From: Microcaldota archaeon
Lineage (GTDB): Archaea; Micrarchaeota; Micrarchaeia; Anstonellales; Bilamarchaeaceae
Reading direction: 5' to 3'
Assembly: GCA_023129075.1 (NCBI GenBank)
Contig: JAGMCT010000017.1
Span: forward strand, 1 to 51,475
DNA length: 51,475 nt
Part shown: positions 31 through 42,646 of the stretch, one piece after another
Layout: the number at the start of each line of letters is the position of its first letter
Position numbering within the stretch: the stretch's first letter is position 1
The notes under the pieces: model-generated
Database searches by the model: none
What the model was told of the DNA's origin: nothing
Seen by the model: the letters and a program-made list of their open reading frames with translations, nothing else
Program-made: the position numbers and the translations under genes

Positions 31-870
31 ATGGTTCAAAAACAGTTTAGAGTAACTCCTGAAAGACTTAAATGCCTAAGAAATAAATTCAGGAAGACTG
101 ATGTTTTTATTGACAGAAATACCAAGGAGATTATAGGAAAACGATTAGATTTTCTGATGATTCTAAACGGTCATTACAAAATAAACTTTGAGAAAGCAAA
201 GGAAAACAGAACCATCATGGCAGAAGTAAAGAATAGATTTCTTGCAAGGGAAGATAAAGAAAGTAGTAATGACAGGGCAAGGGATGATGGATATTTCTCC
301 TATGAATACCAGGATAAGGAGAAAATAAAGGTTTTGATTAAGGATGCTATTCTTCAAATGTTAAGGAATTATAGAGTAAAGGAGCTTTTTGATGAAGGAA
401 CAATCTATGTTTCCAGCTATTATTCCTGGAAAAAACCAGAAGTAAGAAGAAAAGCAGTTAAAATCCTTTTAAGGGTTCTAGAAAAGGACCCAAAAAACAT
501 CGTTAAGGACGATTTCTCTGATAATAGATTAGGCGGACTTTTAGCTCATTACAATAACAGCCCATATCTTGCAATAAAGGAAATCCACTCGAGAATAGAA
601 GAATGGGAGATGGCCTTCACCCCAAATGGTTTCTACAATAGGAAAAGAAACAGAATTAAAGCAATAAGATGGCTAATAGAAAAACTAAACAAAAACCCAA
701 GAGATATCATTAAGGATGATTTTTTTGACAATAGATTGGGGGGACTTTTAACTCATTACAAAGACAGCCCATATCTTGCAATAAGAGAAGCCTACCCAAA
801 AATAAAACCAGAAGAAATGAGAACATGGGTGAGGAAAACAACAATAGAAAAATCACAACCCACCATTTGA
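31..870 (+). CDS. Modular 70-aa-repeat protein, paralog 1 (2 repeats)
   Basis: 279 aa. The N-terminal domain (about residues 1-135) is basic and shared almost identically with four downstream paralogs. Two repeats of about 70 aa follow, each with the skeleton W/ILLIEKL..DPRDI-x-x-DF-x-DNRLGGLL..HY..SPYLAI.E.YP.I.EWEM..TP..FY. The last repeat ends in a cap (IKPEEM...TTIEKSQ) found at the end of every paralog. No signal peptide or membrane segment is visible, so the protein is probably cytosolic. This copy has the fewest repeats and may be a deletion product of a five-repeat ancestor. The start follows a TATA box by about 29 nt with no ribosome binding site, consistent with a leaderless mRNA. 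I cannot name a family with confidence. The GLL..SPY.A...YP..WE pattern resembles repeats I associate with hypothetical bacterial and phage proteins. Function unknown. Confidence 0.85.
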   Translation: MVQKQFRVTPERLKCLRNKFRKTDVFIDRNTKEIIGKRLDFLMILNGHYKINFEKAKENRTIMAEVKNRFLAREDKESSNDRARDDGYFSYEYQDKEKIKVLIKDAILQMLRNYRVKELFDEGTIYVSSYYSWKKPEVRRKAVKILLRVLEKDPKNIVKDDFSDNRLGGLLAHYNNSPYLAIKEIHSRIEEWEMAFTPNGFYNRKRNRIKAIRWLIEKLNKNPRDIIKDDFFDNRLGGLLTHYKDSPYLAIREAYPKIKPEEMRTWVRKTTIEKSQPTI

Positions 871-895
871 ATGCTTATACGAGATTCCGGGCTTC

Positions 896-937
896 CAAAC
901 ACTCCTTTTTAAACATTTTGGCACTAAATGTAATATC
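896..937 (+). promoter_or_regulatory. Leaderless promoter of repeat paralog 2
   Basis: Copy of the conserved block: CAAACACTCCTTT, TATA box TTTAAACA at 908-915, TTTTGGCACTAAATG and the ATG at 938. The TATA-to-ATG distance leaves no room for an untranslated leader. Upstream of it the GAG..CTC palindrome seen in copies 3-5 has decayed. Confidence 0.6.
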
Positions 938-2410
938 ATGGTTCAAAAGCAGTTTAGAATCAACCCTGAAAGACTTAAATACCTCAGAAATAAGTTCAGG
1001 AAAACCGACGTTCTTATTGACAGGAATACTAGAGAAATTATAGGAAAACGATTAGATTTTCTGATGATTCTAAACGGTCATTACAAAATAAACTTTGAGA
1101 AAGCAAAGGAAAACAGAACCATCATGGCAGAAGTAAAGAATAGATTTCTTGCAAGGGAAGATGGAGAACCTGTTTCCGATAGGGCAAGGGACGACAGTTA
1201 TCTTTCTTACGAATACGAAGACAATGCAAAGTTAGGGATTTTGATTAAGGATGCCATTCTTCAAATGTTAAGGAATTATAGAGTAAAGGAACTTTTTGAT
1301 GAAGGAACAATCTACGTTCCGAGATATTCCTGGAAAAAACCAGAGGTAAAGAGAAAAGCAGTTAAAATTCTTTTAAGGGTTCTGGAAAAGGACCCAAGAG
1401 ATATCACTACGAATGATTTCAAAGACAATCGACTAAGAGGACTTTCGGCTCACCATTGCAATGACAGTCCTTATCTTGCAGTAAAGGAAATCTATCCCGA
1501 GATAAAGGAATGGGAGATGAAAACCACCCCAAAATCCTTCTTCGACACGAAAGAAAACAGGATTACAGCAACAGGATGGTTAATAGAAAAACTAAACAAA
1601 AACCCAAGAGACATAACCCAGAAGGATTTCATTGACAACAGATTGAGCGGACTTTTATATCATCATTACAAAGGCAGCCCATATCTTGCAATAAGAGACG
1701 CATACCCAGATATAAAGGAGTGGGAGATGGTCTTCAGCCCAAATTTTTTCTACAAGAAGAAAGAAAACAGGATTACAGCAATAAGATGGTTAATAGAAAA
1801 ACTAAATAAAGACCCAAGAGACATCATTCTGAAAGATTTCATTGACAACAGATTAAGCGGACTTTTAACTGAGTATTACGGTAACAGCCAATATCTTGCA
1901 ATAAGGGAAGCCCATCCAGAGATAAAAGAATGGGAAATGAAGATCACCCCAAGGTCCTTCTTTGATAGAAAAAAAAACAGGATTACAGCAACAAAATGGT
2001 TAATAGAAAAACTAAACAAGGACCCAAGAGACATTACTGCCAATGATTTCCGTGACAACAGGTTAAGCGGACTTTTGTTTCATCATTACAAAGGCAGCCC
2101 CTATCTTGTAATAAGGGAAGTCCATCCAGAGATAAAAGAATGGGAGATGCAAATCACCTCAAATTCTTTTTATGATAAAAAGGAAAACAGAATTAATGCA
2201 ATAAAATGGTTAATAAAAAAACTAAACAAGAATCCAAGAGACATCACTCTAAAGGATTTCAAAGACAACCGATTAGGTGGCCTTTTATCTAAGCATTACA
2301 AAGACAGCCCATACCTTGCAATAAGAGAAGCCTACCCAAAAATAAAACCAGAAGAAATGAGAACATGGGTGAAGAAAACAACAATAGAAAAATTACAAAC
2401 AACTGTTTAA
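938..2410 (+). CDS. Modular 70-aa-repeat protein, paralog 2 (5 repeats)
   Basis: 490 aa: N-domain (1-134) followed by five tandem repeats of about 70 aa. The core between the I-T and D-N-R-L anchors varies as TN-DF-K, QK-DF-I, LK-DF-I, AN-DF-R and LK-DF-K, while most other positions are constant. Two further variable patches lie after GLL and around WEM-x-x-TP-x-x-F. Such conservation with a few variable positions is what modular recognition arrays look like, but no ligand is known. N-domain residues 75-100 read DGEPVSDRARDD..EYEDNAKLG, the version shared with paralogs 3 and 4. The last repeat carries the shared terminal cap. Adjacent paralogs are separated by only about 65 bp and each has its own promoter. 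Confidence 0.88.
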   Translation: MVQKQFRINPERLKYLRNKFRKTDVLIDRNTREIIGKRLDFLMILNGHYKINFEKAKENRTIMAEVKNRFLAREDGEPVSDRARDDSYLSYEYEDNAKLGILIKDAILQMLRNYRVKELFDEGTIYVPRYSWKKPEVKRKAVKILLRVLEKDPRDITTNDFKDNRLRGLSAHHCNDSPYLAVKEIYPEIKEWEMKTTPKSFFDTKENRITATGWLIEKLNKNPRDITQKDFIDNRLSGLLYHHYKGSPYLAIRDAYPDIKEWEMVFSPNFFYKKKENRITAIRWLIEKLNKDPRDIILKDFIDNRLSGLLTEYYGNSQYLAIREAHPEIKEWEMKITPRSFFDRKKNRITATKWLIEKLNKDPRDITANDFRDNRLSGLLFHHYKGSPYLVIREVHPEIKEWEMQITSNSFYDKKENRINAIKWLIKKLNKNPRDITLKDFKDNRLGGLLSKHYKDSPYLAIREAYPKIKPEEMRTWVKKTTIEKLQTTV

Positions 2411-2419
2411 TACCTATCC

Positions 2420-2474
2420 GAGTACTCAGGACTAAACACTCCTTTTTAAACATTTTGGCACTAAATGTAATATC
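2420..2474 (+). promoter_or_regulatory. Promoter of repeat paralog 3 with GAGTACTC palindrome
   Basis: The palindrome GAGTACTC at 2420-2427 lies about 18 bp upstream of the TATA box TTTAAACA (2445-2452). The ATG at 2475 follows at the distance expected for a leaderless transcript. The position and core match copies before paralogs 4 and 5, so the palindrome may be an operator or BRE-adjacent site. Confidence 0.5.
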
Positions 2475-3944
2475 ATGGTTCAAAAACAGTTTAGAATCAA
2501 CCCTGAAAGACTTAAATACCTCAGAAATAAGTTCAGGAAAACCGACGTTCTTATTGACAGGAATACTAAGGAGATTATAGGAAAAAGACTGGATTTTCTG
2601 ATGATTCTTAACGGCCACTATAAAATAGACTTTGAAAGGGTAAAGAAAAATAGGACAGTGATGGCCGAAATAAAGAATAGATTTCTTGCAAAAGAGGACG
2701 GAGAACCTGTTTCAGACAGGGCAAGGGATGATGGATATTTTTCTTACGAATACGAAGACAATGCAAAGTTAGGGATTTTGATTAAGAATGCCATTCTTCA
2801 AATGCTTAGAGATTACAGAGTAAAGGAGCTTTTTGACGAGGGAACAATCTACATTCCAAAATATTATTCCTGGAAAAAACCAGAAGTAAGAAAGGAAGCA
2901 GTTAAAATCCTCTTAAGAGTTCTAAAAAAAGACCCCAGAGATGTCACTTACTATGATTTTCTTGACAACAGATTAGGAGGACTTTTGGTCAACCATTACA
3001 ACAATAGTCCACATTTTGTAGTAAAAGAACTCTATCCAGAAATAAAAGAATGGGAGATGTCCTGCACCCCACATGGTTTCTACGATAAGAAGGAAAATAG
3101 AATTAAAGCAATAAAATGGCTAATAGAAAAACTAAACAAAAACCCAAGAGATATCACTTACCATGATTTCCCTGACAACAGATTAGGAGGACTTTTGATC
3201 AAGCATTACAACAATAGTCCACATCTTGCAGTAAAAGAACTCTATCCAGAAATAAAAGAATGGGAGATGTCCTGCACCCCACATGGTTTCTTTGATAAGA
3301 AAGAAAACAGGATTAAAGCAGTAAAATGGTTAATAAAAAAACTAAATAAAGATCCAATAGAAATCACTAGTAATGATTTTCGAGACAATCGTTTAAGCGG
3401 ACTTTTAGACTATTACGATGGTCCTTACCTTGCGATAAAGGAAATTTATCCAGAAATAAAAGAATGGGAAATGAAAACTACCCCCATGTCGTTTTATAAT
3501 AAGAGAGAAAACAGAATTAAAGCAATAAAATGGCTAATAGAAAAACTAAAAAAAGACCCAAGAGATATCACTGCCAATGATTTCCGAGACAATAGATTGG
3601 GGGGGCTTTTAGTAAGTCATTACAAATCCAGCCCATATCTTGCAATAAAGGAAGTTTATCCAGAGATAAAAGAATGGGAGATGTCCTGCACCCCACATGG
3701 TTTCTACAATAAGAGAGAAAACAGAATTAAAGCAATAAAATGGCTAATAGAAAAACTAAACAAAAATCCAAGAGACATAACAACAAATGATTTCTTTGAC
3801 AACCGATTAAGCGGACTTTTCGTTACATATTACAAAGGTAGCCCGTACCTTGCCATAAAGGAAGCCTACCCAAAAATAAAGCCAGAAGAAATGAGAAACC
3901 TAGTTGGAAAAACAACAATAGAAAAATCACAAACAACTGCTTAA
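2475..3944 (+). CDS. Modular 70-aa-repeat protein, paralog 3 (5 repeats)
   Basis: 489 aa: N-domain plus five repeats. Variable cores are YY-DF-L, YH-DF-P, SN-DF-R, AN-DF-R and TN-DF-F. Repeats 1, 2 and 4 share the patch SCTPHGF and repeats 1-2 also share HYNNSPH, which points to recent duplication inside this gene. Repeat 3 is slightly shortened (LLDYYDGPYL). The C-terminal cap is conserved (IKPEEM then TTIEKSQ). The gene ends 16 bp from the convergent Fic gene. Leaderless start. Cytosolic by appearance; function unknown. Confidence 0.88.
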   Translation: MVQKQFRINPERLKYLRNKFRKTDVLIDRNTKEIIGKRLDFLMILNGHYKIDFERVKKNRTVMAEIKNRFLAKEDGEPVSDRARDDGYFSYEYEDNAKLGILIKNAILQMLRDYRVKELFDEGTIYIPKYYSWKKPEVRKEAVKILLRVLKKDPRDVTYYDFLDNRLGGLLVNHYNNSPHFVVKELYPEIKEWEMSCTPHGFYDKKENRIKAIKWLIEKLNKNPRDITYHDFPDNRLGGLLIKHYNNSPHLAVKELYPEIKEWEMSCTPHGFFDKKENRIKAVKWLIKKLNKDPIEITSNDFRDNRLSGLLDYYDGPYLAIKEIYPEIKEWEMKTTPMSFYNKRENRIKAIKWLIEKLKKDPRDITANDFRDNRLGGLLVSHYKSSPYLAIKEVYPEIKEWEMSCTPHGFYNKRENRIKAIKWLIEKLNKNPRDITTNDFFDNRLSGLFVTYYKGSPYLAIKEAYPKIKPEEMRNLVGKTTIEKSQTTA

Positions 3945-3959
3945 TTAATCCTGTTGATT

Positions 3960-4595
3960 TCACTTGATTTTAATTCGTTGTTCTAAAAATTCTTCAGCCA
4001 GAAACTTTTTTATATACTGTCTGATATGGTCTTCGGTTATTCTTTTTCTAAATTTTATTCCATTTTCTTTTAGTAATGTTTTTAAGTCATCCGAAGTTTT
4101 ATCCTCATTCCAGTCCGCAATTAATTCTATCTTTTTTCCCCTCTCAAGTATATATTTTTTATCATGGTTAAGAACGTACGAGCTGTATCTTTTATCGTTG
4201 TTTATGTAAGATAACATATTCAATCCAAGAAAAACAGAAGAGCAGACTAAAGCAGTCCTTTTATTACCGTCTATAAAAGGGTGCCTGCATGCTATTTCAA
4301 ACAATATATCTTCTGAAAGTTTCAAAATGGTTTTATATTTCTTTTTCTTTCCAAAACGCTCAAATTTCCCCCTAATTTTATCTTCAAAAAAATCAAGTTG
4401 CCCTTCACTTTTAAGTCCTTTGGAGGGAACGTCGTAGTTGTGTTTCCTGCAATATTCCTCTACCCCATCATGAAGAGAAATTATTGCTTCAGCCGTAGGA
4501 AGACAAAGAAAAGATTTTTCCTTGGTGAGAAAATTTTCACTAAGCAGAAGAGGAAATTCCCCCAAATCTTTTAATTTAACCTTAATAAATTTCAT
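3960..4595 (-). CDS. Fic/Doc family protein
   Basis: 211 aa. The Fic core motif HPFIDGNKRT spans residues 105-114 (catalytic-type His105, Asp109, Gly110, Asn111, Arg113). The N-terminal part has a Doc-like helix around PTAEAIISLHDG. Fic proteins transfer AMP or another phosphate-containing group to proteins; Doc-type members are phosphotransferase toxins. The intact HPFx(D/E)GNxR motif favours nucleotide transfer over the Doc variant, but the substrate cannot be read from sequence. The gene sits on the opposite strand inside the repeat-protein array, between paralogs 3 and 4. A 36-codon ORF ends 11 bp upstream and may be its antitoxin or a remnant of one. No inhibitory (S/T)xxxE(G/N) helix was recognised with certainty. 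Confidence 0.85.
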   Translation of the reverse strand: MKFIKVKLKDLGEFPLLLSENFLTKEKSFLCLPTAEAIISLHDGVEEYCRKHNYDVPSKGLKSEGQLDFFEDKIRGKFERFGKKKKYKTILKLSEDILFEIACRHPFIDGNKRTALVCSSVFLGLNMLSYINNDKRYSSYVLNHDKKYILERGKKIELIADWNEDKTSDDLKTLLKENGIKFRKRITEDHIRQYIKKFLAEEFLEQRIKIK

Positions 4596-4605
4596 AGTGG
4601 TGGCT

Positions 4606-4716
4606 CTAACGCGACGCCAGATACTTTATGGCTTTTTTATTTGACTTGAAACTTTTTTCAATTATTTCAACAATGGAATTTTTCAACTTTTTATTTCGTA
4701 TTTCCTTCTCTACCAT
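4606..4716 (-). CDS. Possible 36-aa partner/antitoxin of the Fic protein
   Basis: Short ORF starting MVEKEIRNKKLKNS and ending YLASR, lysine-rich and predicted helical. It is preceded by a clear GGAGGG ribosome binding site 6 nt before the ATG, and by TTTAAA boxes further upstream near 4740-4760. It ends 10 bp before the Fic start codon on the same strand, the usual order of antitoxin and toxin. It is shorter than Phd-type antitoxins (about 70 aa), so it may be truncated or a new type. The evidence is position and the ribosome binding site only. Confidence 0.45.
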   Translation of the reverse strand: MVEKEIRNKKLKNSIVEIIEKSFKSNKKAIKYLASR

Positions 4717-4814
4717 TGGAATCCCTCCAAATATTTATTTGTTTAAACCTTTAAATAGGTTTCTGGTCTTCTTCGGTTAAATCCGTCATTTGTTGCTGAG
4801 TTATAAGTCAATTC

Positions 4815-4872
4815 GAGAGCTCAGGGCTTTCAAACACTCCTTTTTAAACATTTTGGCACTAAATGTATTATC
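4815..4872 (+). promoter_or_regulatory. Promoter of repeat paralog 4 with GAGAGCTC palindrome
   Basis: GAGAGCTC at 4815-4822, TATA box TTTAAACA at 4843-4850, then TTTTGGCACTAAATGTATTA next to the ATG at 4873. This copy has ATGTATTA where the others have ATGTAATA, which makes it identical there to the ankyrin-family promoters. Confidence 0.5.
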
Positions 4873-6129
4873 ATGGTTCAAAAACAGTTTAGAGTAACCC
4901 CTGAAAGACTTAAATACCTCAGAAACAAATTCAGGAAAACAGACGTTCTTATTGATAGGAATACCAAGGAGATTATAGGAAAACGATTAGATTTTCTGAT
5001 GATTCTTAACGGTCATTATAAAATAAACTTTGAAAGTGCAAAGGAAAACAGAACCATTATGGCAGAAGTAAAAGACAGATTTTTGGCAAGGGAAGATGGA
5101 GAGCCTGTTTCAGACAGGGCAAGGGACGACAGTTATCTTTCTTACGAATACGAAGACAATGCAAAGTTAGGGATTTTGATTAAGGATGCCATTCTTCAAA
5201 TGTTAAGGAATTATAGAGTAAAGGAACTTTTTGATGAGGGAACAATCTACGTTCCGAGATATTCCTGGAAAAAACCAGAAGTAAAGAGAAAAGCAGTTAA
5301 AATCCTTTTAAGGATTCTTGGAAAGGACCCAAGAGATCTTACTAAAGATGATTTCAATGATAATAGATTAGGTGGCCTTTTAGCTCACCACAAAGGTAGC
5401 CCCTACATCGCAATAAGGGAAAGCTACCCAGAAGTAAAAGAATGGGAGATGAAAAATACTCCAATATACTTTTTTAAGAAGAAGGAAAACAGAATTAAAG
5501 CAACAAGTTGGTTAATAAAAAAACTAAAAAAAGATCCAAAAGACATCACTCGGAAGGATTTCATTGACAACAGATTGACCGGACTTTTAAATCATTACAA
5601 CGGCAGTCCTTATCTTGCTATAAAGGAAGTCCATCCAGAAATAAAAGAATGGGAGATGAAAACTACCCCGATTTCTTTCTACGATAAGAAAGAAAACAGA
5701 GTTAAAGCAATAAAATGGTTAATAGAAAAACTAAATAAAGACCCAAGAGATGTAACTTGGAATGATTTTCGTGACAATAGATTAGGCGGACTTTTAGTAG
5801 GCCATTACAAATCCAGTCCATATCTTGCAATAAGAGACGCATACCCAAAAATAAAAGAATGGGAGATGATAAGTACACCGAGATCTTTCTTTGACAAGAA
5901 AGAAAACAGAATTAAAGCAATAAAATGGATGATAGAAAAACTAAACAAAAACCCAAGAGATGTAACTGGGGATGATTTCCGTGACAATAAATTAGGTAGA
6001 CCTTTACGCTATCATTACTACAACATCCTGTATCTTGCAATAAAGGAAGCTTATCCAGAAATAAAACCAGAAGAAATGAGAACATGGGTAAAGAAAACAA
6101 CAATAGAAAAATTACAAACAACTGCTTAA
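4873..6129 (+). CDS. Modular 70-aa-repeat protein, paralog 4 (4 repeats)
   Basis: 418 aa: N-domain plus four repeats. Variable cores are KD-DF-N, RK-DF-I, WN-DF-R and GD-DF-R. The last repeat is the most degenerate of the family: DNRLGGLL has become DNKLGRPL and the SPYLAI segment reads ILYLAI, although the terminal cap IKPEEM is intact. It lies just after the Fic locus and has a complete leaderless promoter, so it is likely expressed. No signal peptide. Function unknown. Confidence 0.87.
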   Translation: MVQKQFRVTPERLKYLRNKFRKTDVLIDRNTKEIIGKRLDFLMILNGHYKINFESAKENRTIMAEVKDRFLAREDGEPVSDRARDDSYLSYEYEDNAKLGILIKDAILQMLRNYRVKELFDEGTIYVPRYSWKKPEVKRKAVKILLRILGKDPRDLTKDDFNDNRLGGLLAHHKGSPYIAIRESYPEVKEWEMKNTPIYFFKKKENRIKATSWLIKKLKKDPKDITRKDFIDNRLTGLLNHYNGSPYLAIKEVHPEIKEWEMKTTPISFYDKKENRVKAIKWLIEKLNKDPRDVTWNDFRDNRLGGLLVGHYKSSPYLAIRDAYPKIKEWEMISTPRSFFDKKENRIKAIKWMIEKLNKNPRDVTGDDFRDNKLGRPLRYHYYNILYLAIKEAYPEIKPEEMRTWVKKTTIEKLQTTA

Positions 6130-6138
6130 TACCTATCC

Positions 6139-6193
6139 GAGCACTCAGGACTAAACACTCCTTTTTAAACATTTTGGCACTAAATGTAATATC
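6139..6193 (+). promoter_or_regulatory. Promoter of repeat paralog 5 with GAGCACTC palindrome
   Basis: GAGCACTC at 6139-6146 and TATA box TTTAAACA at 6164-6171, with the ATG at 6194. The 60 bp upstream of this gene are almost identical to those upstream of paralog 3, including the stop-codon context of the preceding copy. This suggests duplication of a gene-plus-promoter unit. Confidence 0.5.
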
Positions 6194-7660
6194 ATGGTTC
6201 AAAAACAGTTTAGAATCAACCCTGAAAGACTTAAATACCTAAGAAATAAGTTCAGGAAAACAGACGTTCTTATTGACAGGAATACCAAAGAAATTATAGG
6301 AAAAAGACTGGATTTTCTGATGATTCTTAACGGCCATTATAAGATGGACTTTGAAAGGGCAAAGAAAAACAGAACCATCATGGCAGAAGTAAAGAATAGA
6401 TTTTTGGCAAGGGAAGACGGGGAACCTGTTTCCGACAGGGCAGGGGATGAAGGATATCTTTCTTATGAATACCAGGATAAGGAGAAAATAAAGGTTTTGA
6501 TTACTACTGCCATATCTCAAATGCTCAGGGCTTACAGAATAAAAGAACTTTATGATGAAGGAACAATCTACGTTTCCCCCTATTCCTGGAAAAAACAAGA
6601 AATAAGAACTAAAGCAGTCAAGATTCTTTTAAGGGTTCTGGGGAAGAACCCAAGAGATATCATCATTAAGGATTTCTATGACAATAAATTAGGCGGACTT
6701 TTACGCAGTCATCACAAAAATAGTCCCTATCTTGCAATAAGGGAAGTCCATCCAGAGATAAAAGAATGGGAGATGTCGAGTACACCAAATTTCTTCTACG
6801 GTAAGAGAAAAAATAGAATTAAAGCAATAAAATGGTTAATAGAAAAACTAAACAAAAACCCAAGAGATATCACTAGGGATGATTTCCGTGACAACAGATT
6901 AAGAGGACTTTTGACTCATTATAATAATAGTCCATACCTTGCAATAAAGGAAAGTTATCAAAAAATAAAAGAGTGGGAGATGAAAACCACCCCAAGGTCC
7001 TTCTTTGACAAGAAAGAAAACAGGGTTAAAGCAGTAAAATGGTTGATAGAGAAACTGGGAAAGAACCCGAGAGACATCACTATGCTTGATTTCTTTGACA
7101 ATAGATTAAGAGGACTTTTGGCTCATCACAGAGATAGCCCATATCTTGCAATAAGAGAAGCCTATCCGGAAATAAAAGAATGGGAGATGAAAACCACACC
7201 AATGTTTTTCTACAAGAAGAAGGAAAACAGAATTAAAGCAATAAAATGGCTGATAAAAAAACTAAAAAAAGACCCAAAAGACATCATTCAAAAGGATTTT
7301 CTTGACAACAGATTAAGCGGACTTTTAAAATATTACAAAGGCAGTCCATATCTCTCAATAAGGGAAGTCCATCCAAGAATAAAAGAATGGGAGATGCAAG
7401 TCACTCCAAGATCCTTCTTTGATAAGAAAGAAAACAGAATTAAAGCAATAAGATGGCTAGTAAAAAAACTAAAAAAAGACCCAAGAGACATTACTTATGA
7501 TGATTTCCATGATAATAGGTTAGGCGGGCTTTTACAAAGTCATCATTACAACGGTAGCCCCTATCTTGCAATAAAGGAAGCTTATCCAGAAATAAAACCA
7601 GAAGAAATGAGAAATAAAGTGGGAAAAACAACAATAGAAAAATCACAAACAACTGTTTAA
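6194..7660 (+). CDS. Modular 70-aa-repeat protein, paralog 5 (5 repeats)
   Basis: 488 aa: N-domain plus five repeats with variable cores IK-DF-Y, RD-DF-R, ML-DF-F, QK-DF-L and YD-DF-H. N-domain residues 88-106 carry the EYQDKEKIKVLI version found otherwise only in paralog 1, while residues 74-79 (DGEPVS) match paralogs 2-4, so the N-domain is a mosaic. The gene ends the array; the next gene has an unrelated promoter. Cytosolic by appearance, function unknown. Confidence 0.88.
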   Translation: MVQKQFRINPERLKYLRNKFRKTDVLIDRNTKEIIGKRLDFLMILNGHYKMDFERAKKNRTIMAEVKNRFLAREDGEPVSDRAGDEGYLSYEYQDKEKIKVLITTAISQMLRAYRIKELYDEGTIYVSPYSWKKQEIRTKAVKILLRVLGKNPRDIIIKDFYDNKLGGLLRSHHKNSPYLAIREVHPEIKEWEMSSTPNFFYGKRKNRIKAIKWLIEKLNKNPRDITRDDFRDNRLRGLLTHYNNSPYLAIKESYQKIKEWEMKTTPRSFFDKKENRVKAVKWLIEKLGKNPRDITMLDFFDNRLRGLLAHHRDSPYLAIREAYPEIKEWEMKTTPMFFYKKKENRIKAIKWLIKKLKKDPKDIIQKDFLDNRLSGLLKYYKGSPYLSIREVHPRIKEWEMQVTPRSFFDKKENRIKAIRWLVKKLKKDPRDITYDDFHDNRLGGLLQSHHYNGSPYLAIKEAYPEIKPEEMRNKVGKTTIEKSQTTV

Positions 7661-7723: not shown

Positions 7724-10700
7724 ATGGGGTCCATGGGAAAAAATATACTATTATGTTCACTTCTTTTCTTATCCTTATTCGCTTCCCTCTCCTATTCTAC
7801 CGCCCCAAAGGATTCAGGTGTAATCTTCTCATTCTCCCACGGAGAAATTAATGTTTCTGTACTCACTACAGATAGAGGAGAAATAAAACTAAGGGATTAT
7901 GAAGCAAACAAGGAATTCTTCAATACCTTCTTTACCACGGGGTTTGATGAAGGAGGAGCCGTAACCCCCATCCCGGATACTGCATCCCTGGAAGATAAGG
8001 GCTATTTAGAAGAAGCAAAGGTAAAAATCTTCTACGAGAAATCCGGCCAATGGACCCAGAAAAATCTCAACCAAAAATGCAAGGAAATACAAATAAGCAA
8101 TTTTTTCGGAACCTGCGAACTAAAAGAAGAGATATATGAACAAAAATGCATAAACCTGAAGATTGAGTACGCAGGTGAAAAGGATAAGATTGCCTCTTCT
8201 GTAACTTATGCTACCGTCTGCGATACAACACATGGAATATTTCCTGTCCTTGGAAGCGCAATAAACAAAAACCTTGACCAGAACGACCCGATGTGTGTCC
8301 TCACAACCCTTCTGCTCGGCCTTCTTCTTGCAAGTATGTTCTTCACAGGAAGAAGTCCTCTCTCTCTTCTTGATATTACAACCCCTATGCTTCCAAGGCC
8401 TAAAGGATTCGCTTTCCGCAGTTTTAGTTTCGGAGGCGGTTTCTGGAAGATGAAACAAGAGCTTCTCGCTCAACAGAAGATGTTCAAAAAATCATTCAAG
8501 GAAAGTGTGAAGGTGCTTGGAGAGAGACTGAAGAAATTAAATCCTGCAAATACCGCATTCATAAATTCCATTCTGCGTTCAACTGCTTCTATAAGAACAA
8601 AGGCTCTTGCTCTTGCCCTTATGGAGAAGGGCGCTAATAAAAAAAGCGTCATGAAAATAATTGCTACTGATGATGAAAAGATTGCAAAGAAATGGGGGCT
8701 TTCCAAGGATGAGAGGGAAAAAACTCTCAGAGATGCAGTTTTCAGATTGAAAGAGATAGAAGGAAAGAAAAGAGGTTTGGGCGAATTCATAGACCTGAGC
8801 CTAAGAAATGAGATGCTTGTGGCTGAGATGCCAAGCGGTCCGAAGTGGTTCAATAAAAGCATAGGAAAGGTTGTTGGTTTTATTCCTGGAGTAAACAGGA
8901 TAGCCATGGTTGGTGCTGCTTCCATAACCGGAACTCTTAGGAACATGAGGAGCATAGCAAGAGCTACAGCAGGACTCCCTGTCGCAGTTGGTGATTCACT
9001 CACAGAAGGGGCGGTTCAGAGAAGGATTGGCCTTGCAAGGGAAAAGAAAGGAGCAAAAGGAAAACTTGCCAAAGGAGCATACGGTTTCTTCTACCCCGAA
9101 CACATTGAAAAGGCAGAAAAGCTCTGGGATACCCTTCCGAGGGAAGCAAGGATGTATAAAGAACTTATGAAGAGCGCAAAGAACGACCTTAAAGCATATT
9201 ATATTACCCAAATACTTAAGAAAAAAGGAATTAATCTTTCAATTTCCTACGATGAGCTTATGACCCTTCTTTTTGATGAGGACATAGACACAAAGAGTAC
9301 GAAGAAGCTTAATGATACAGAAAAGCAGCAATTAATAGATAAATTGAATGTGCTCAAGGCGCTTGGAATAGAAGGGGTTAACCCTGCAGAGCTTCTTGAG
9401 ATAGACCGAAAAATCCGGAATATTCTTACTGATAAAAAACTGGGGGATTGGGATAGGATTACTGAACTTGCAAAACTAGCAAATCAATACGGTGCTTATG
9501 GAGATATCAGGGCACTCGGAGCAATGAAAACCCTCAAAGCTTTTGAGGCTGATAAAAGGGCGGATTCGGAAAAACTTCAGGACTTTATGACCTATCTAAA
9601 AAATACATACCGCGTAGACAAGCCTGTTAATTCTATAACCGATCTGGCAGGTGCAACAGGAAGAAAATTTTATTTCATGACCGGAAGGGACAGTTTGGTA
9701 TATGGGAATGGCACTTCAGATATATTTAGATATTATGTTCTTCACTCTTATATCCAGGAGGTTGAGAAAGGAAAGGCAAGCAACAAACATTATGCTTTAG
9801 AGCGCCCAAGCAATGGCAACTTCCTTGTTGATGTTGTAAAATTGAATACAGTAAAACTCTTTAACCAGAAATGGGGTTTTCCAGACCCTACAGACCCGCG
9901 CCTTAAAAATGACAGATTCAAGACCGCCATGTTCCAGATGAAGTTGATGCTCAATGATTTTATAGATGTAGATAAACTTGAGAGGTTCCTTGGAAAGAAA
10001 ACAGATGTGGCTGTTTTGAACCCAACTGATTATCTCTACAGCCAGAAGATTGGAAAAAGAATAACATCCTACCAAGAAATAAAGGAGGAATACGGCCCTG
10101 ATGATGTATGGAAGCTGGATGTAAAGCACTTCTGGAATGTAGGCACCAAAGGTTCAAGAAAAACAGCAGAGCATGAGGCTTATGGAAGGGTTCATCTTGC
10201 TCATATCCATTCTCCAGAACCTGTAAGGGTGGTTGCACACAAATATATGCACACCCGAATGAAAAGTATGATAGGAGAAAGGTCCCCTAATGCGATTTTC
10301 TTTTCCAATTCTGAATATAGATCCCTTAAGGAAATACGTATGGCTTATATGGATAGGATTCTTGAATATAGGGGAGAGGACCCCACCAAATTTAGTATGG
10401 ACCAGAAACTCCAGATGGTTTCATACAAAAATATAAAGGATTTCACCCAGAAGACCATATCTCTGGCAGAGATGAAGAAGTATACTTGGGTAAGAACAAA
10501 AGAAGGCCAGCTTATTCCATTCAGGGACAACATGTCTTTCTCAGATGCGGAAAGGATAGTAAACGGACGCCTTACTTATAGAACAAGAAACAATAGGTGG
10601 GCGCCCATGGAGCTTGAGAAAGTAAATCTCATAAGCCTTCCAAAAAAATATTTTGATCAGATGGGTAAGGTATCTACTATTCAGGATTACAGCACTTTAT

Positions 10701-12292
10701 ACGGAGATCTGAAAGGTTGGGCAGATAAGCATGGAAATAAAGAAAAACTCCTTATGCTTGCAGCACTCAAACAGACTGCCACTACTAAGCTGGGCCAGCC
10801 TGATCTTTTCTGGCAGTCCACAGTACAGAACAAAGACGTCAAGGTAAACCCATACAACGAAAGAGCCCCTGGTATGAAAGGTTTATGGGATAGGGTAATA
10901 CAAGGTGTTTCTCAGGGTATAGAAACCACACTAATCTCTGCTGCTCTGCCCCAGCTGAAAAAGATGTATGAAACAACAGCCCTTTCAGAGGATTACAGGC
11001 AAAGGGTTTCAAGAATGTCACAGGAGATTATCTCAGGAAAGGCAAAGGCCAGAAATCCAGAGGCAATGAAATTTTATGAACAATTTATTGATTCTACGAT
11101 AAGATATCATACAGCATGGGATAATGCAATTACGCGAGACCCCAGAGGAAACAGCTCGGATATAGGTCACCAGTTCATTTTTGCCTCATTCTTCCACCAC
11201 GGTCCTGCTGTTCCATTTGAATCAAGTTTTGATACCAATTTTTATTATGGAAAAAGAAGGAAAGCAGTAATGGACCTTCTTATGAATCCAATAAGGATAA
11301 ATTGGGCAATAGGAGGGGCGTTTGCTTCTGCCTACAGAACTCATCTTACTTCTAGGTGGGGCTATCCTCATAAATATGATAGAACAGAAGACCCGCTTGA
11401 GCCTTATGCAATGACACCTCCAAGAACAAGGGATGCAGTAACTTCCCTTCTCAATCCCCTATTTGCAGGGGTTGACCTTTTTTCAGCATCAGCAAAAGGG
11501 TTTGCCTACCGCTTAGGAAATGTCATTGGGGCGGGAAGTGGTCCTTTGACACGGAAGCTTGGTCTTGCGGAAGGTGTTATGCCCAAAAAAACAGCTAGAA
11601 CTCCAGGATTCATGAAGGAATCCCTTTTGAGGGAACTCTTCGGAGGAGACGCCACAAGAACTGGTTATGCTGGTGATGAGTCAAGAATGGGTATCCACCG
11701 TTCTCACGAAGATACCTCTTGGATACACAAAAACATAAACATAATACATGGAAATACCAATCCCGGTGCTTCTTATGAAAGCTGGAGAAGAACAGCTCAT
11801 ATGGACCCAAGACTTGCAGTTCACCTTACAAAGGGCTCAAAATATGCTTCCTATTATTCCAAAGACACTTATCTTCAGAAGCAGGCAAGCCTGGGTATAG
11901 TAAAAAGAGAGATAACAGCAGAGAGATTATGGGAAAAGAGAGAGGCCCAGCTCAGGAGCTACGGGGCAAGGCAGAACACCCTTTTCGGTTTCCTTAATCC
12001 TTTTATGTTTGCTGTCCACACCCCTCTCATACCTCTTATAAGTACAACAGGAATTTTGAAGGGTGGAGAAAGGGCTGCTAAATTTATTGCTACGGACCAA
12101 TTGAGCAGAAGAGAGAAGTGGAAATATGTAAAGGGCTTACGGATGGTTCCTGCTGCATGGTTAGCAAGGAAAACATATGAGACAGGAAAGAGAGAGCTCA
12201 GACAGACATTTGCATTTACTTCAGTCCAGAGAAGACTGGTTTTTGACCCAGTAACCGGAAAACTTATAAAACCGGATAACTATTCTGCTTAG
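7724..12292 (+). CDS. Large membrane-anchored protein of unknown function
   Basis: 1522 aa. An N-terminal signal peptide (about residues 5-26, ILLCSLLFLSLFASLSYS) is followed by an exported domain to about residue 185 with several cysteines. A strong membrane segment follows around 190-208 (VLTTLLLGLLLASMFF). The remaining 1300 residues are mostly soluble and basic, with weaker hydrophobic stretches near 380-405 (VVGFIPGVNRIAMVGAAS) and near 1440-1460 (LNPFMFAVHTPLIPLIS). If the signal peptide is cleaved, the large C-terminal part would lie on the cytoplasmic side. I recognise no family. Eight bases downstream is a lipoprotein with a lytic transglycosylase domain, translated from a GGTGA site, so the two very probably form an operon. 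By analogy with VirB6/VirB1 pairs, a surface or secretion role is possible, but this is inference. Confidence 0.8.
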   Translation: MGSMGKNILLCSLLFLSLFASLSYSTAPKDSGVIFSFSHGEINVSVLTTDRGEIKLRDYEANKEFFNTFFTTGFDEGGAVTPIPDTASLEDKGYLEEAKVKIFYEKSGQWTQKNLNQKCKEIQISNFFGTCELKEEIYEQKCINLKIEYAGEKDKIASSVTYATVCDTTHGIFPVLGSAINKNLDQNDPMCVLTTLLLGLLLASMFFTGRSPLSLLDITTPMLPRPKGFAFRSFSFGGGFWKMKQELLAQQKMFKKSFKESVKVLGERLKKLNPANTAFINSILRSTASIRTKALALALMEKGANKKSVMKIIATDDEKIAKKWGLSKDEREKTLRDAVFRLKEIEGKKRGLGEFIDLSLRNEMLVAEMPSGPKWFNKSIGKVVGFIPGVNRIAMVGAASITGTLRNMRSIARATAGLPVAVGDSLTEGAVQRRIGLAREKKGAKGKLAKGAYGFFYPEHIEKAEKLWDTLPREARMYKELMKSAKNDLKAYYITQILKKKGINLSISYDELMTLLFDEDIDTKSTKKLNDTEKQQLIDKLNVLKALGIEGVNPAELLEIDRKIRNILTDKKLGDWDRITELAKLANQYGAYGDIRALGAMKTLKAFEADKRADSEKLQDFMTYLKNTYRVDKPVNSITDLAGATGRKFYFMTGRDSLVYGNGTSDIFRYYVLHSYIQEVEKGKASNKHYALERPSNGNFLVDVVKLNTVKLFNQKWGFPDPTDPRLKNDRFKTAMFQMKLMLNDFIDVDKLERFLGKKTDVAVLNPTDYLYSQKIGKRITSYQEIKEEYGPDDVWKLDVKHFWNVGTKGSRKTAEHEAYGRVHLAHIHSPEPVRVVAHKYMHTRMKSMIGERSPNAIFFSNSEYRSLKEIRMAYMDRILEYRGEDPTKFSMDQKLQMVSYKNIKDFTQKTISLAEMKKYTWVRTKEGQLIPFRDNMSFSDAERIVNGRLTYRTRNNRWAPMELEKVNLISLPKKYFDQMGKVSTIQDYSTLYGDLKGWADKHGNKEKLLMLAALKQTATTKLGQPDLFWQSTVQNKDVKVNPYNERAPGMKGLWDRVIQGVSQGIETTLISAALPQLKKMYETTALSEDYRQRVSRMSQEIISGKAKARNPEAMKFYEQFIDSTIRYHTAWDNAITRDPRGNSSDIGHQFIFASFFHHGPAVPFESSFDTNFYYGKRRKAVMDLLMNPIRINWAIGGAFASAYRTHLTSRWGYPHKYDRTEDPLEPYAMTPPRTRDAVTSLLNPLFAGVDLFSASAKGFAYRLGNVIGAGSGPLTRKLGLAEGVMPKKTARTPGFMKESLLRELFGGDATRTGYAGDESRMGIHRSHEDTSWIHKNINIIHGNTNPGASYESWRRTAHMDPRLAVHLTKGSKYASYYSKDTYLQKQASLGIVKREITAERLWEKREAQLRSYGARQNTLFGFLNPFMFAVHTPLIPLISTTGILKGGERAAKFIATDQLSRREKWKYVKGLRMVPAAWLARKTYETGKRELRQTFAFTSVQRRLVFDPVTGKLIKPDNYSA

Positions 12293-12300
12293 GTGAATTT

Positions 12301-14583
12301 ATGAAAATTCCTTTTTATATTTCTCTCCTTGTTTTTTCTTTATTACTCCTTGGAGGGTGCACCTCTTTTCTTGACGGCACTGCCGACTATTTTACAGCAA
12401 CAGATAAAGGAGATGCAATAAAGGAAGTGGTTTTTCTTGAGCTCAGCCCTTCAAAATGCTACCTTGGAGAATGTTATTGTTTTCTTTGCGAGGATATGAG
12501 CGATGTCAGCTGGCCCCTTGACTTATTCATAGATTCTGCTCTTCTTTACGGAGACTGCTCTTTTTCTCCGTGCACAGAAGATACCTTCACCCAAATGTAT
12601 TTCTTTGAGAGCGGTCAGTATGTGCTTCCCTTTCTCTTCGGCCAGGGTCCTAGCTTTCTTTCCTATTCTGATGGCAATTCCTATTCAAATAATTCCATGC
12701 AGCTTGCCGTGAAATGGCTCTATGCAAACGGAAATGATTATCCAATACCTGTTGCAGAAAAAGCCAAATGCTTCCTAAGACACAGGGTGATTCCGCTTTA
12801 TATTCTTTACAGCGAAGGAAAAAGCGTAAGCGCCTCACGCGCCGGGCAGGTAGCACAAAGCTTCAAGGACCTTGGTCCTGTAATGATAACAACCGAAATG
12901 AATCCGGACCTTTCGGACCCCCAGATTCTTTCAGAAGTAAAACAACAGATAATAGAGATGGATTCTGCATGTCCGAAGTGCCTCATAGCCCTTGCCCTTA
13001 AGGCGGGAGATTTTGAAGGGGCAAAGGCAGTTCTTTCTGATAAATCTGTTTCAGCAAAGGTGGACCTTATTGCATACGGCTTGAATTCATCTTTCTCAAA
13101 GAAATGCACAGGAAGAGACCTTTATATAAACGCTTTGAATTTTTCTAATTTCCTTCTCCAAGGATACAACAAACCTTCTATATGGGCTTATGTTCTTCTT
13201 GAGGAAGGAGAGTATGGAGAATGTGAATGGACAGCAGGAGAGATACAGGAAACTTACTCACTTGCTCTAAAATACATCCCTGCGTTTGTTTACAGAGGAG
13301 TTATAGGCATGGCACCTTATTCATTCTACCATTATGAAAACGGCCCTCTGGAATGCAAGGACTGTGCATTCTTTGATAAGGAATTTTATCCTTATACTGA
13401 AAAAATATATTCCTGGTTCGGGAATGTTCAGCGCTACTACACCTCTTACGGTGCTTATCCTGTAACCTACACAAACAATTCGGCAACCGACTGCTCCTTT
13501 GGTGGAAATCCATTGGTTTACTACGGCTTGGCTATGAGTGCTGGAACCCAAGATGACAGCGGAAACAATATTCTTGAACCTCTTGATTACACATTCTTCA
13601 GGTGTGATGCCTGCCTTGCTTCTTTCAGCGGAGAGGAGTTTCCGTTTACTCTTACAAAATCAGCAGGTTCTCCTCCGGAAAACATCTGCGGAAATGAGGA
13701 AGGAATTACTCCAGAACGGCAGTTTCTTATGAAATCCATAGAGGTTTATGCAGATATGCACGATTTGGATTTTGCATGGGCAAAGGCAATAGTATGGCAG
13801 GAAAGCAATTTCAATCCGTGTGCGGTTTCTGCTGCAAAATCCACTGCTCCCTGCAACCCCTACAACCTTAAGATAGGAGCTATAAAGGATGTTGAGGATG
13901 CCTGTACATTCCAGGACCTTTCCTCCAGTTTTCAAGCATCTGAAAACCTTTATTCCAAAGACCCGGAAACAGAGATTGAATACAAACCCTGCGCCTTCGG
14001 CCTTATGCAGGTAATAGATTACGGCCATGGCTGGACAAAGGCACACGACCCCTACTTCAGCCATCCTAAGGAGGTTCTCTCATGCACGGATGAATACAAC
14101 CCCTTTAATCTTCAACACTCCCTTTGCGTGGGAACTGCAATTCTTCAGACATATTTTATAGAAGCCATTGAGATTGTTGATGATAATAGAGCTGCCCTTG
14201 AGATAAACAGCAAAGAACTTGAAAACTCAGAACTGGAAGATGAAAAAAAGCAGGAACTTGAATCGTTGGAAGAGGAAAAGAGAATAATTATTGCTATGTT
14301 TATTGCATCTCATAAATATTACGGAGATTGGAATTCTAATTGGATACATTCCTTTTCAAGCCAGAAAGACAAGAAAAGTACAAAAGAGAAAACCTGCGGT
14401 GAGGGAAAGTGCTGTGGAAATAAGGATTTCTTAAATTATGTCGGCAACTGCCTTGAAAACAGCAATGGAGAAGAGTATTTCTATGGAAACCAGGTAATGG
14501 CAAAATACAAAAAAATAAGAGAAGAATGTAAATACTGCGATGAAGAAAGCTGGGTTGAGGCATTAAGAAATTATTTTGAGTGA
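12301..14583 (+). CDS. Lipoprotein with C-terminal SLT (lytic transglycosylase-like) domain
   Basis: 760 aa. The lipoprotein signal ends in LLGGC with the lipidated Cys at residue 20. Residues about 160-345 (PLYILYSEGKS.. VDLIAYGLNSS.. KPSIWAYVLLEEG) look like a separate alpha/beta domain, perhaps barrel-like, which I cannot assign. Residues about 490-680 have the order of an SLT domain: WQESNFNP with the presumed catalytic Glu501, AFGLMQV (565-571), NPFNLQHSLCVGTAIL (600-615) and IAMFIASHKYYGDW (664-677) in place of the usual AxAAYNAG. Such domains cut murein glycan strands, which is surprising in an archaeal context. A coiled, charged insertion (about 637-660) lies within it. The protein is rich in Cys, so disulfides outside the cell are likely. 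Co-operonic with the 1522-aa membrane protein. Confidence 0.75.
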   Translation: MKIPFYISLLVFSLLLLGGCTSFLDGTADYFTATDKGDAIKEVVFLELSPSKCYLGECYCFLCEDMSDVSWPLDLFIDSALLYGDCSFSPCTEDTFTQMYFFESGQYVLPFLFGQGPSFLSYSDGNSYSNNSMQLAVKWLYANGNDYPIPVAEKAKCFLRHRVIPLYILYSEGKSVSASRAGQVAQSFKDLGPVMITTEMNPDLSDPQILSEVKQQIIEMDSACPKCLIALALKAGDFEGAKAVLSDKSVSAKVDLIAYGLNSSFSKKCTGRDLYINALNFSNFLLQGYNKPSIWAYVLLEEGEYGECEWTAGEIQETYSLALKYIPAFVYRGVIGMAPYSFYHYENGPLECKDCAFFDKEFYPYTEKIYSWFGNVQRYYTSYGAYPVTYTNNSATDCSFGGNPLVYYGLAMSAGTQDDSGNNILEPLDYTFFRCDACLASFSGEEFPFTLTKSAGSPPENICGNEEGITPERQFLMKSIEVYADMHDLDFAWAKAIVWQESNFNPCAVSAAKSTAPCNPYNLKIGAIKDVEDACTFQDLSSSFQASENLYSKDPETEIEYKPCAFGLMQVIDYGHGWTKAHDPYFSHPKEVLSCTDEYNPFNLQHSLCVGTAILQTYFIEAIEIVDDNRAALEINSKELENSELEDEKKQELESLEEEKRIIIAMFIASHKYYGDWNSNWIHSFSSQKDKKSTKEKTCGEGKCCGNKDFLNYVGNCLENSNGEEYFYGNQVMAKYKKIREECKYCDEESWVEALRNYFE

Positions 14584-20187: not shown

Positions 20188-21270
20188 TTATTGAATTACT
20201 TTCTTTACCTTATTCTTATCAAGTTTCTCTCTTGGTTTTCTCATTTCATTACTCTTAATATCTATATTCTTATTCCGTGCTCTCTGAAGATTTCTGAATA
20301 ATTCTAATGCTTCTGTTTTTGATATTGAACCTTTCTTCTGAGATTCTCTCAGTACTTCAATTACTTCTCCTCTTCTATCTTTAGAAATATTCCCTGGATT
20401 AGAATACAGGTCAAGTATAAGTTTCTGTTCTTTGCTAAATAGTTCTGGTTTTTCTCTTTTCATTTTATTTATTGTTTCTCTTGCTTTCTCATTTCCATAG
20501 GCACAAATAATACCTGCGCCTGTCTTTATCAATAGCTCAACTGTTTCTGTATGTCCATCCCTAACAGCCTCCATTAGTGCTGTTCCACCAAAGTAATCTC
20601 TTGCATTAACGTTCGCACCTTTCTTAATCAATAACTTTGCTATTTTTATATTTCCGTTCGAAGAAGCAATCATAAGTGCAGTATCGCCAAACTTATTTTT
20701 TGCATTAACGTTCGCACCTTTCCGTATTAACAGTTCAACTATTTCCATAGGTCCTTTTCTAGTAGCTTTCATCAGTATTGTCATACCATTATATTTCTTT
20801 GCATGCACATCTGCCCCTTTTTTTATCAGTAGTTTGACTATATTTGTATGCCCGTTCCGGGTAGCCCACAGTAGTGCTGTCTCACCAAGTTTGTTCTTTG
20901 CATCTACCTCAGCCCCTTTCTTAATTAATAGTTCAACCAGTTTTGTACATCCATTTATGGCAACATTCATTAATGCTGTCTGACCATTTTCACCCGTTGC
21001 ATTAATATCTGCTCCATTTTCTATAAGGAGTTTGGCTGTTTCTGTATGTCCATATCGAGAAGCTTTCATCAGTGGTGTCCAACCCTTTTCATGCTTTACA
21101 TTTTTATCCCTTACATTTACGTCTGCTCCATGTTGTATTAATAATTCAACTGTTTCTGTACGTCCATTCTTAGCAGCTTCCAGCAGTTCCTCGTTCTTTC
21201 GGCCAAATCTTTTCTTTGGTTTTTTCATTTCACTGTTTATCTTAAGTTTTATTTTCTCATTCCAATCCAT
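20188..21270 (-). CDS. Ankyrin-repeat protein with shared C-terminal domain (copy B)
   Basis: 360 aa. About seven ankyrin repeats (roughly residues 27-260) follow the G-x-TALM-A...GH-TE-VELLI-KGADVNA consensus. The last 100 residues (EKPELFSKEQKLILDLYSNP.. KGSISKTEALELFRNLQ.. MRKP) form a domain found in all five ankyrin proteins of this window. The N-terminus has an insertion (WNEKIKLKINSEMKKPKK) that resembles the extreme C-terminal tail of its paralogs. Its ATG directly follows the stop of copy A with no gap, so it is translationally coupled. No signal peptide. The ligand is unknown. Confidence 0.9.
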   Translation of the reverse strand: MDWNEKIKLKINSEMKKPKKRFGRKNEELLEAAKNGRTETVELLIQHGADVNVRDKNVKHEKGWTPLMKASRYGHTETAKLLIENGADINATGENGQTALMNVAINGCTKLVELLIKKGAEVDAKNKLGETALLWATRNGHTNIVKLLIKKGADVHAKKYNGMTILMKATRKGPMEIVELLIRKGANVNAKNKFGDTALMIASSNGNIKIAKLLIKKGANVNARDYFGGTALMEAVRDGHTETVELLIKTGAGIICAYGNEKARETINKMKREKPELFSKEQKLILDLYSNPGNISKDRRGEVIEVLRESQKKGSISKTEALELFRNLQRARNKNIDIKSNEMRKPREKLDKNKVKKVIQ

Positions 21271-41938: not shown

Positions 41939-42646
41939 TTAATTGATTATTTTTCTTAGTCTTTCTTTCTTTAGTTCTTTCGTCGGTTTTCTCATTCCTT
42001 TATTAGTAATAATATTTTCATTATTATTCCACATTCTTTGAAGATTTTTGAATAATTCCAGTGCTTCTGTTTTTGATATTGAACCGTTCTTTTGTAGCTC
42101 TCTTAGAACTTCAATTACTTTTTTCTTTTTATTTATAGAAAACTTTCCAGGATTAGAATAAAGATTAAGCATAATTCTCTGTTTTTCTGTAAATAGCTCT
42201 GGTTTTTCTCTTGCAAGTTGGTTTATTGTTTCTCTTGCACTACCATTTTTACACGCGCAAACAACATTTGCTCCTTTCCTTATCAATAGTTTTACTGTTT
42301 TTTTATGTTCATAGCTAGCAGCCAAAATTAATGCTGTTCCACCAAACCCACCCTTTGCATTTATATCTGCTCCATTTTGTATTAAGAATTCAGCTATTCT
42401 TATATATCCATAAGAAGCAGCCCACATTAATGCTGTTTCACCCCATCTGTTTTTTGCATTCACATATGCCCCTTTTTTTATTAACATTTCTGCTGTTTTT
42501 GTATGTCCATTCTCAGCAGTATGCATCAATGCGGTCCATCCACTATTATTCGTTGTATTTATATCCGCACCGAAAAATAGGACAATCCTTGCTCTAATGG
42601 TGCTTCCTTTTTTTGCAGCTTCCAGAAGTTTTTCATCCCAATCCAT
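41939..42646 (-). CDS. Ankyrin-repeat protein with shared C-terminal domain (copy D)
   Basis: 235 aa. MDWDEKLLEAAKKGS is followed by about four ankyrin repeats (to about residue 135), then the family C-terminal domain (EKPELFTEKQRIMLNLYSNP.. NGSISKTEALELFKNLQRMW.. MRKPTKEL). The ATG directly follows the stop codon of copy E without a gap, the same coupling as copies A/B. It has no promoter of its own. Confidence 0.9.
   Translation of the reverse strand: MDWDEKLLEAAKKGSTIRARIVLFFGADINTTNNSGWTALMHTAENGHTKTAEMLIKKGAYVNAKNRWGETALMWAASYGYIRIAEFLIQNGADINAKGGFGGTALILAASYEHKKTVKLLIRKGANVVCACKNGSARETINQLAREKPELFTEKQRIMLNLYSNPGKFSINKKKKVIEVLRELQKNGSISKTEALELFKNLQRMWNNNENIITNKGMRKPTKELKKERLRKIIN

Follow-up and report, generated by a model that had tools for sequence, protein, structure and literature searches.

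Tandem arrays of 70 aa repeats with recurrently variable positions in Micrarchaeota, a candidate system of modular recognition

STAR, MOON, and pTERF are DNA-binding tandem-repeat proteins in which the units are fixed and a few residues vary (PMC11417379); archaea are not mentioned in that paper. Five genes with a comparable layout lie in the Micrarchaeota genome assembly GCA_023129075.1, at positions 31-7660 of contig JAGMCT010000017.1. The 51,475 nucleotides of this contig that were analysed are referred to here as the window. The variation among the repeats of these five genes is real, selected, and recurrent, in a repeat family as yet unstudied, and its interpretation as recognition is well supported.

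The repeats and their variable positions

All five repeat-protein genes are intact open reading frames (ORFs) on the + strand and share one layout, in which a leader of ~127 aa is followed by the repeats and a short tail.

Gene A, 31-870, + strand, 279 aa, leader and 2 repeats
Gene B, 938-2410, + strand, 490 aa, leader and 5 repeats
Gene C, 2475-3944, + strand, 489 aa, leader and 5 repeats
Gene D, 4873-6129, + strand, 418 aa, leader and 4 repeats
Gene E, 6194-7660, + strand, 488 aa, leader and 5 repeats; structure predicted

Together they carry 21 repeats of 67–70 aa (2+5+5+4+5), as counted in the initial annotation of this sequence, which also described the genes as adjacent. All do lie within 31-7660, but the series is interrupted between genes C and D by a Fic/Doc-type gene at 3960-4595 on the minus strand (Pfam Fic, E 4e-8). 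The arrays were found independently by Tandem Repeats Finder as a unit of ~210 bp with a 76–80% match. Two sub-classes stand apart, the first repeats (WKKPEV..KAVKILL) and the last (..IKPEEM).

Repeat A1 (first-type), 412-618, +
Repeat A2 (last-type), 619-819, +
Repeat B1 (first-type), 1316-1525, +
Repeat B2, 1526-1735, +
Repeat B3, 1736-1945, +
Repeat B4, 1946-2155, +
Repeat B5 (last-type), 2156-2359, +
Repeat C1 (first-type), 2856-3065, +
Repeat C2, 3066-3275, +
Repeat C3, 3276-3479, +
Repeat C4, 3480-3689, +
Repeat C5 (last-type), 3690-3893, +
Repeat D1 (first-type), 5251-5457, +
Repeat D2, 5458-5664, +
Repeat D3, 5665-5874, +
Repeat D4 (last-type), 5875-6078, +
Repeat E1 (first-type), 6572-6781, +
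Repeat E2, 6782-6988, +, in the three-repeat model
Repeat E3, 6989-7195, +, in the three-repeat model
Repeat E4, 7196-7402, +, in the three-repeat model
Repeat E5 (last-type), 7403-7609, +

The repeat frame is DPRDI-T-x1-x2-DF-x3-DNRL-x-GLL, where x1, x2, and x3 are residues 32, 33, and 36 of the repeat. Across the 21 repeats, 12 residues occur at x1 (K, T, Q, L, A, Y, S, R, W, G, I, M) and 10 at x3 (S, F, K, I, R, L, P, N, Y, H), while x2 is D, N, or K in six repeats each and otherwise Y, H, or L. These sets, and the presence of two more variable patches, one formed by the residues after GLL and the other by the two residues that follow WEM and the one that follows TP, had been read correctly at the outset. 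In the same numbering, the variable positions that come after x3 include 41, 45-46, and 48-49. The description of the modules as near-identical does not hold, as the best DNA identity of a repeat to any other is 74–84% and the proportion of synonymous differences (pS) among the internal repeats of the window is ~0.46. An assembly artefact was considered and rejected, since the frames are intact, silent sites differ between repeats, and other metagenome-assembled genomes have arrays of their own.

In the window repeats, the proportion of nonsynonymous differences (pN) is 0.10 in scaffold codons as against 0.60 in the eight variable columns. Because synonymous sites differ while scaffold pN stays low, the constancy of the scaffold reflects purifying selection and not recency. 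Maximum-likelihood codon models, which rest on repeat trees that ignore gene conversion, gave omega (dN/dS) values of ~0.15 for the scaffold and 1.5–2.5 for the variable columns of the window.

A parallel family is present in genome G067, of the same order and another family, where four head-to-tail genes encode proteins of 573–649 aa with 7–8 repeats each and related genes lie on two further contigs. The scaffold there is different (VPxGYWDDPKNVKEAVEWLVEEMAKEGKKIEEIT-xx-DF-x-DAGL-xx-L), with the variable letters in the same places, and the leader, judged by eye, is unrelated to that of the window. Because scaffolds and leaders differ, the expansions in these Micrarchaeota lineages would appear to be separate. 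Column entropies in the window and G067 are correlated (r 0.57, or 0.52 with internal repeats only), none of 65 circular shifts matches as well, and the eight most variable columns of each have six in common (P 8e-6). Of the five most variable columns, four are common to the window, G067, and 89 diverse repeats from the phylum; x1, x3, and two post-GLL columns are among the six most variable in the dispersed family of genome G032, and likewise rank among the most variable ones of the diverse set. In codon models of the G067 array omega is 0.15 for the scaffold and 0.6 for the variable columns; an overall range of 0.6–1.9 is given for the variable positions. One G067 repeat gene, at L072:4421-6153, is broken into overlapping frames of 393 and 204 aa, which is a frameshift or an assembly error, and adjoins a gene for a type IV coupling-protein-like ATPase.

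The strongest single result comes from orthologues. In the 1:1 orthologues of G118 and G119, compared over four repeats (n=26 codon comparisons), the variable columns are 77% identical (pN 0.11, pS 0.75) and the scaffold 72%, whereas between repeats of one protein these values fall to 6% and 40%. The G176/G177 orthologues (n=14) are 100% identical in the variable columns and 91% in the scaffold. Across four g103 species (n=121, not independent), orthologous repeats are 66% identical at variable and 76% at scaffold columns, as against 17% and 25% between repeats. The orthologue sets are few, and all are from species without arrays. Since orthologous repeats keep their variable letters while the repeats of one protein differ, each repeat retains its own letters, a pattern that favours repeat-specific recognition over neutral drift. 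A four-repeat member of ~359 aa, inherited vertically, is found in all eight g103 genomes and two g100 genomes searched (L095, L096, L092, L093, and others).

Two evolutionary features of modular recognition were tested, and both are seen: the same positions diversify in diverged expansions, and they are constrained in orthologues. Neutral variation at all positions was not observed in the homologues. The original proposal of modular recognition is therefore upheld as to the recurrence and constraint of the positions, though not as to a ligand, and repeat-specific recognition in general is probable. By mutual information, x2 and x3 are weakly coupled in each array (p 0.02 and 0.003; 15 tests each), which is not used as support.

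Such repeats are present in 50 of the 301 genomes of the phylum, and in 13 of the 43 genomes of the host's own family. A scan of genome contigs with a single protein found no relatives; a profile of the C-terminal repeats did recover them, and all of the records recovered are labelled Micrarchaeota, Burarchaeum, or ainarchaeum.

Predicted structure, relatives, and possible ligand of the modules

The AlphaFold2 model of three gene E repeats (E2-E4, 18-row alignment) has a predicted local distance difference test score (pLDDT) of 95.2 and a predicted template modelling score (pTM) of 0.84. Each repeat has a long helix A (9-23), helix B (32-37), helix C (41-46), and helix D (51-58), as well as short turns. 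Positions x1 and x2 are at the start of helix B and x3 is one turn further, while variable positions 41 and 45-46 are on helix C and 48-49 in the loop that follows. With F35 of helix B and L43/L44 of helix C taken as buried, a helical wheel places x1, x2, x3, 41, and 45 outward on the same side of each helix, and in the antiparallel B–C pair the first residues of B would lie beside the last of C. By this reasoning, applied to a confident model, x1–x3 and the helix C positions would be exposed, and the variable residues may share one face, the continuity of which the initial annotation had proposed as a check. The full gene E protein is modelled at pLDDT 80, and its leader folds poorly.

A tblastn search of plasmids matched DUF4046 proteins of Priestia, Pontibacillus, and Alicyclobacillus. 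Alignment of archaeal repeat A1 with Bacillota DUF4046 repeats by hhalign gave a probability of 98.4% (E 9.2e-15, 67 columns). The Bacillota proteins in this comparison carry PF13255 above the cut-off; the PF13255 model has no match in the window proteins at E≤10 and none in 21 relatives. Judged by these profiles, the archaeal repeat is a distant, diverged DUF4046 repeat, beyond the reach of the Pfam model. DUF4046 genes adjoin ger spore-germination receptor operons in six of the seven Bacillota plasmid loci examined, and Bacillota DUF4046 is a candidate germination regulator. These ger-adjacent loci are on Priestia and Alicyclobacillus plasmids, in more than one orientation (L038, L039, L140-L143). 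No paper naming the DUF4046 family was found in the open-access literature searched.

There is also a weak resemblance to HNH_repeat (PF18780), the homing endonuclease-associated repeat, at 92.2% (E 5.7e-7) by hhalign from the archaeal side, which is below the Pfam cut-off. From the DUF4046 side it is 0.2% only, and PF18780 matches one of 14 homologues, at E 0.003, and none in the host's own genome. Multi-unit HNH_repeat proteins of 337–665 aa are found in the same order (L133-L139; G075, G077, G078) and are perhaps a parallel repeat family. The superinfection-exclusion protein Ltp is also annotated with PF18780. Direct scans against Pfam, NCBIfam, PADLOC, and PHROGs assigned no family, with only low-complexity-type matches on the K/E-rich helix, and a PDB sequence search with the window proteins gave no match.

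The explanation that we favour is that genes A-E encode cytosolic, solenoid-like proteins in which a conserved leader precedes two to five modules of 70 aa, mainly of four helices. Each module would present specificity residues at x1, x2, and x3 on helix B and at 41, 45-46, and 48-49 on or after helix C, probably together with the variable residues that follow WEM and TP, all on one exposed face, the rest of the module being a fixed scaffold. We infer that a protein recognises its target by adding up the contacts of its modules across this common face; duplication of genes, together with turnover of repeats, would supply new combinations of modules. Nucleic acid is the likeliest target, with double-stranded DNA somewhat ahead of RNA, and the proteins may act as modular sequence-reading regulators or silencers. 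To nucleic acid as the ligand we give a probability of about 0.48, with protein as the other possible ligand. That the repeats form an as yet undescribed archaeal class of programmable nucleic-acid readers, with DUF4046-type 70 aa modules of a fold absent from the PDB, separate expansions in several Micrarchaeota lineages, and each module reading a short DNA or RNA stretch by x1–x3 and the post-GLL residues, is a more tentative proposal.

A nucleic-acid ligand is suggested by charge. The isoelectric points (pI) of the window proteins are 9.4–9.9 and those of the G067 proteins 6.0–9.3, and K+R over D+E is enriched at variable positions relative to the scaffold in the window (odds ratio 4.4, p 3e-5) and in G067 (odds ratio 3.0, p 3e-8). 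The proteins are cytosolic, which counts on the same side. The location of DUF4046 beside ger operons, the place of a regulator, is circumstantial evidence in the same direction, the profile resemblance to PF18780 would add weakly to it, and the precedent of STAR, MOON, and pTERF lends support by analogy.

Several observations weigh against this reading. Foldseek searches with the three-repeat or the full model gave no PDB match at E≤0.001, and a viral structure search gave no significant fold match, so that on the predicted structure a known nucleic-acid fold is not recovered. The variable positions fall on helices B and C and leave out the helix that would serve for recognition in a classical helix-turn-helix. 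Neither G032 nor the diverse set shows the basic bias of the variable face, so the suggestion of base or phosphate contacts at x2 has circumstantial support from two arrays and none from the wider family; one G067 protein, moreover, has a pI of 6.0. The leader domain is without any annotation, the linkage of DUF4046 to ger partly reflects one plasmid lineage (Priestia), and the five promoters are identical, leaving no variable operators to pair with variable proteins. A model in which the diversity arises from each product regulating its own gene was rejected, because the upstream blocks are near-identical. Finally, omega at the variable sites of the window is not significantly above 1 (twice the log-likelihood difference 3.1). 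The entropy and codon analyses proposed earlier bear out the variable columns and the constrained scaffold, and positive selection at the variable positions is not proven.

It is possible, though less likely, that the variable faces bind peptides or proteins (own effectors, or host-cell or viral proteins) in the manner of ankyrin, leucine-rich, or tetratricopeptide (TPR) repeats, the paralogues then forming an intracellular repertoire for recognition or scaffolding. Helical solenoids in general often bind protein, hydrophobic residues make up 31% of the variable face in the window and 23% in G067, acidic members occur in G067, several ankyrin-repeat genes are present in the same genome, and the PDB search did not match a nucleic-acid fold. 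This is at odds with the strong bias to K/R over D/E on the variable face of both arrays and with the regulator-like setting of the DUF4046 relatives beside germination operons; nor was a signal peptide or a fused effector domain seen. If x1–x3 and the post-GLL residues were instead merely the most exposed, their variation would be neutral and the arrays a copy-number amplification of one function. The same columns being most variable in the diverse set would be expected of exposed sites, and omega does not significantly exceed 1, but this explanation is improbable: in orthologues the variable sites are conserved to about the same degree as the scaffold (pN 0.11 and 0.15 against pS 0.75 and 0.69), which neutral sites cannot be, other polar and presumably exposed parts of the scaffold are held, such as the K/E/N/R-rich helix A (omega 0.15), and charge at the variable sites is non-random.

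A repertoire for defence, counter-defence, or a mobile element, shaped by an arms race with viruses or plasmids and with the Fic gene as part of the module, would account for the patchy distribution and lineage-specific expansion, the Fic/Doc gene inside the cluster, and the G067 copy beside the coupling-protein gene. It is very unlikely, as the scan for defence families matched no notable model to the repeat proteins, there are no relatives in IMG/VR viral contigs, phages gave one match only, which is non-significant (E 0.9), and no Fic gene was found beside the other arrays examined. A mobile-element location of the locus is also unsupported, since the next gene, encoding a protein of 1522 aa, belongs to the core of the family, 42 of whose 43 genomes have homologues.

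Promoters, leaders, and neighbouring genes

The leader domain is kept across all five genes (pN 0.07, pS 0.41).

Leader domain A, 31-411, +, ~127 aa
Leader domain B, 938-1315, +
Leader domain C, 2475-2855, +
Leader domain D, 4873-5250, +
Leader domain E, 6194-6571, +

Immediately 5' of each gene is a near-identical block.

Upstream block of gene A, 1-30, +, same block, cut by the contig end
Upstream block of gene B, 897-937, +, near-identical, TATA-like TTTTTAAA at -32 to -25 from the ATG
Upstream block of gene C, 2434-2474, +, same block as gene B
Upstream block of gene D, 4832-4872, +, same block as gene B
Upstream block of gene E, 6153-6193, +, same block as gene B

From its sequence, the block with the TATA-like TTTTTAAA is probably a leaderless archaeal promoter and, since none of the five genes shares its block with another, single, leaderless transcripts are probable. 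The blocks of genes B-E are almost identical over 41 bp, yet silent sites in the leader domain differ (pS 0.4), and the identity suggests selection or gene conversion acting on the promoter. Because the contig starts at base 1 of the window, the cluster of repeat genes may be cut.

The Fic/Doc-type gene at 3960-4595 (-) also has weak matches to the candidate defence families PDC-S23. At 7724-14583 (+) the gene for the 1522 aa protein is followed by one for a protein of 760 aa with a lytic-transglycosylase (SLT) domain, and the two have the look of core genes for the envelope or for secretion. The host genome is 0.99 Mb, and the other neighbours in the window, topoisomerase VI, a KH protein, and DUF530, are archaeal. 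Ankyrin-repeat genes with 99 bp tandem repeats are present at 20188-22080, 36580-36835, and 42295-42510 (-), so that the host genome holds other repeat-protein expansions.

Comparison with known repeat systems

No description of such archaeal arrays was found in the open-access literature, with most subscription journals outside that scope. This agrees with the initial view that no archaeal system of this kind had been described, although the repeat does have relatives, in the distant DUF4046. Archaeal and DUF4046 (PF13255) repeats share one order of motifs (P..YW, WLI, F..NGL.GLL, S.Y.AI, YP...PWEL), and both occur in multi-unit proteins, with two to four units in each bacterial protein. The bacterial units, at ~78 aa as against 67–70 aa in the archaea, are far from homogenised and were seen without tandem gene arrays. 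HNH_repeat is a small helical repeat with a ..GSW.kAl..AG motif that resembles the archaeal SPY.Ai.EA, in a shorter unit (~54 aa).

The transcription activator-like effectors (TALE) and TALE-like proteins (TALE, BurrH/Bat, MOrTL, STAR) have, as here, a fixed helical scaffold in tandem with few hypervariable residues, and their paralogues differ in repeat arrays as the archaeal ones do. The TALE repeat is 33–35 aa and two helices, with one repeat-variable diresidue (RVD) and one base per repeat, whereas the archaeal unit is 67–70 aa with four main helices and at least five variable sites, and a relation in sequence or fold was not detected. TALE-like proteins bind DNA sequence-specifically, as the archaeal repeats may. 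pTERF, which is prokaryotic and has three-helix units, and MOON also combine tandem repeats with variable residues; the likeness is one of design, DNA binding being experimental for them and inferred for the archaeal proteins (PMC11417379). Pentatricopeptide repeat (PPR) proteins are similarly modular, with lineage-specific expansion and diversification at specific positions, but the PPR unit is a 35 aa two-helix repeat that binds RNA in plant organelles and has no homology to the archaeal unit.

By size, sequence, or fold the archaeal unit is thus not a TALE, PPR, TPR, or ankyrin repeat. Even if the ligand is protein, the arrays are a clear natural example of a scaffold conserved in concert while the contact sites diversify, found in archaea whose genomes are very small, and paired arrays and orthologues are at hand through which a code can be tested. 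Were nucleic-acid reading true, it would give a first function to DUF4046, including its members beside bacterial germination operons, and the modules would add a new code to those of TALE, PPR, PUF, and zinc fingers, one based on a larger unit and another fold.

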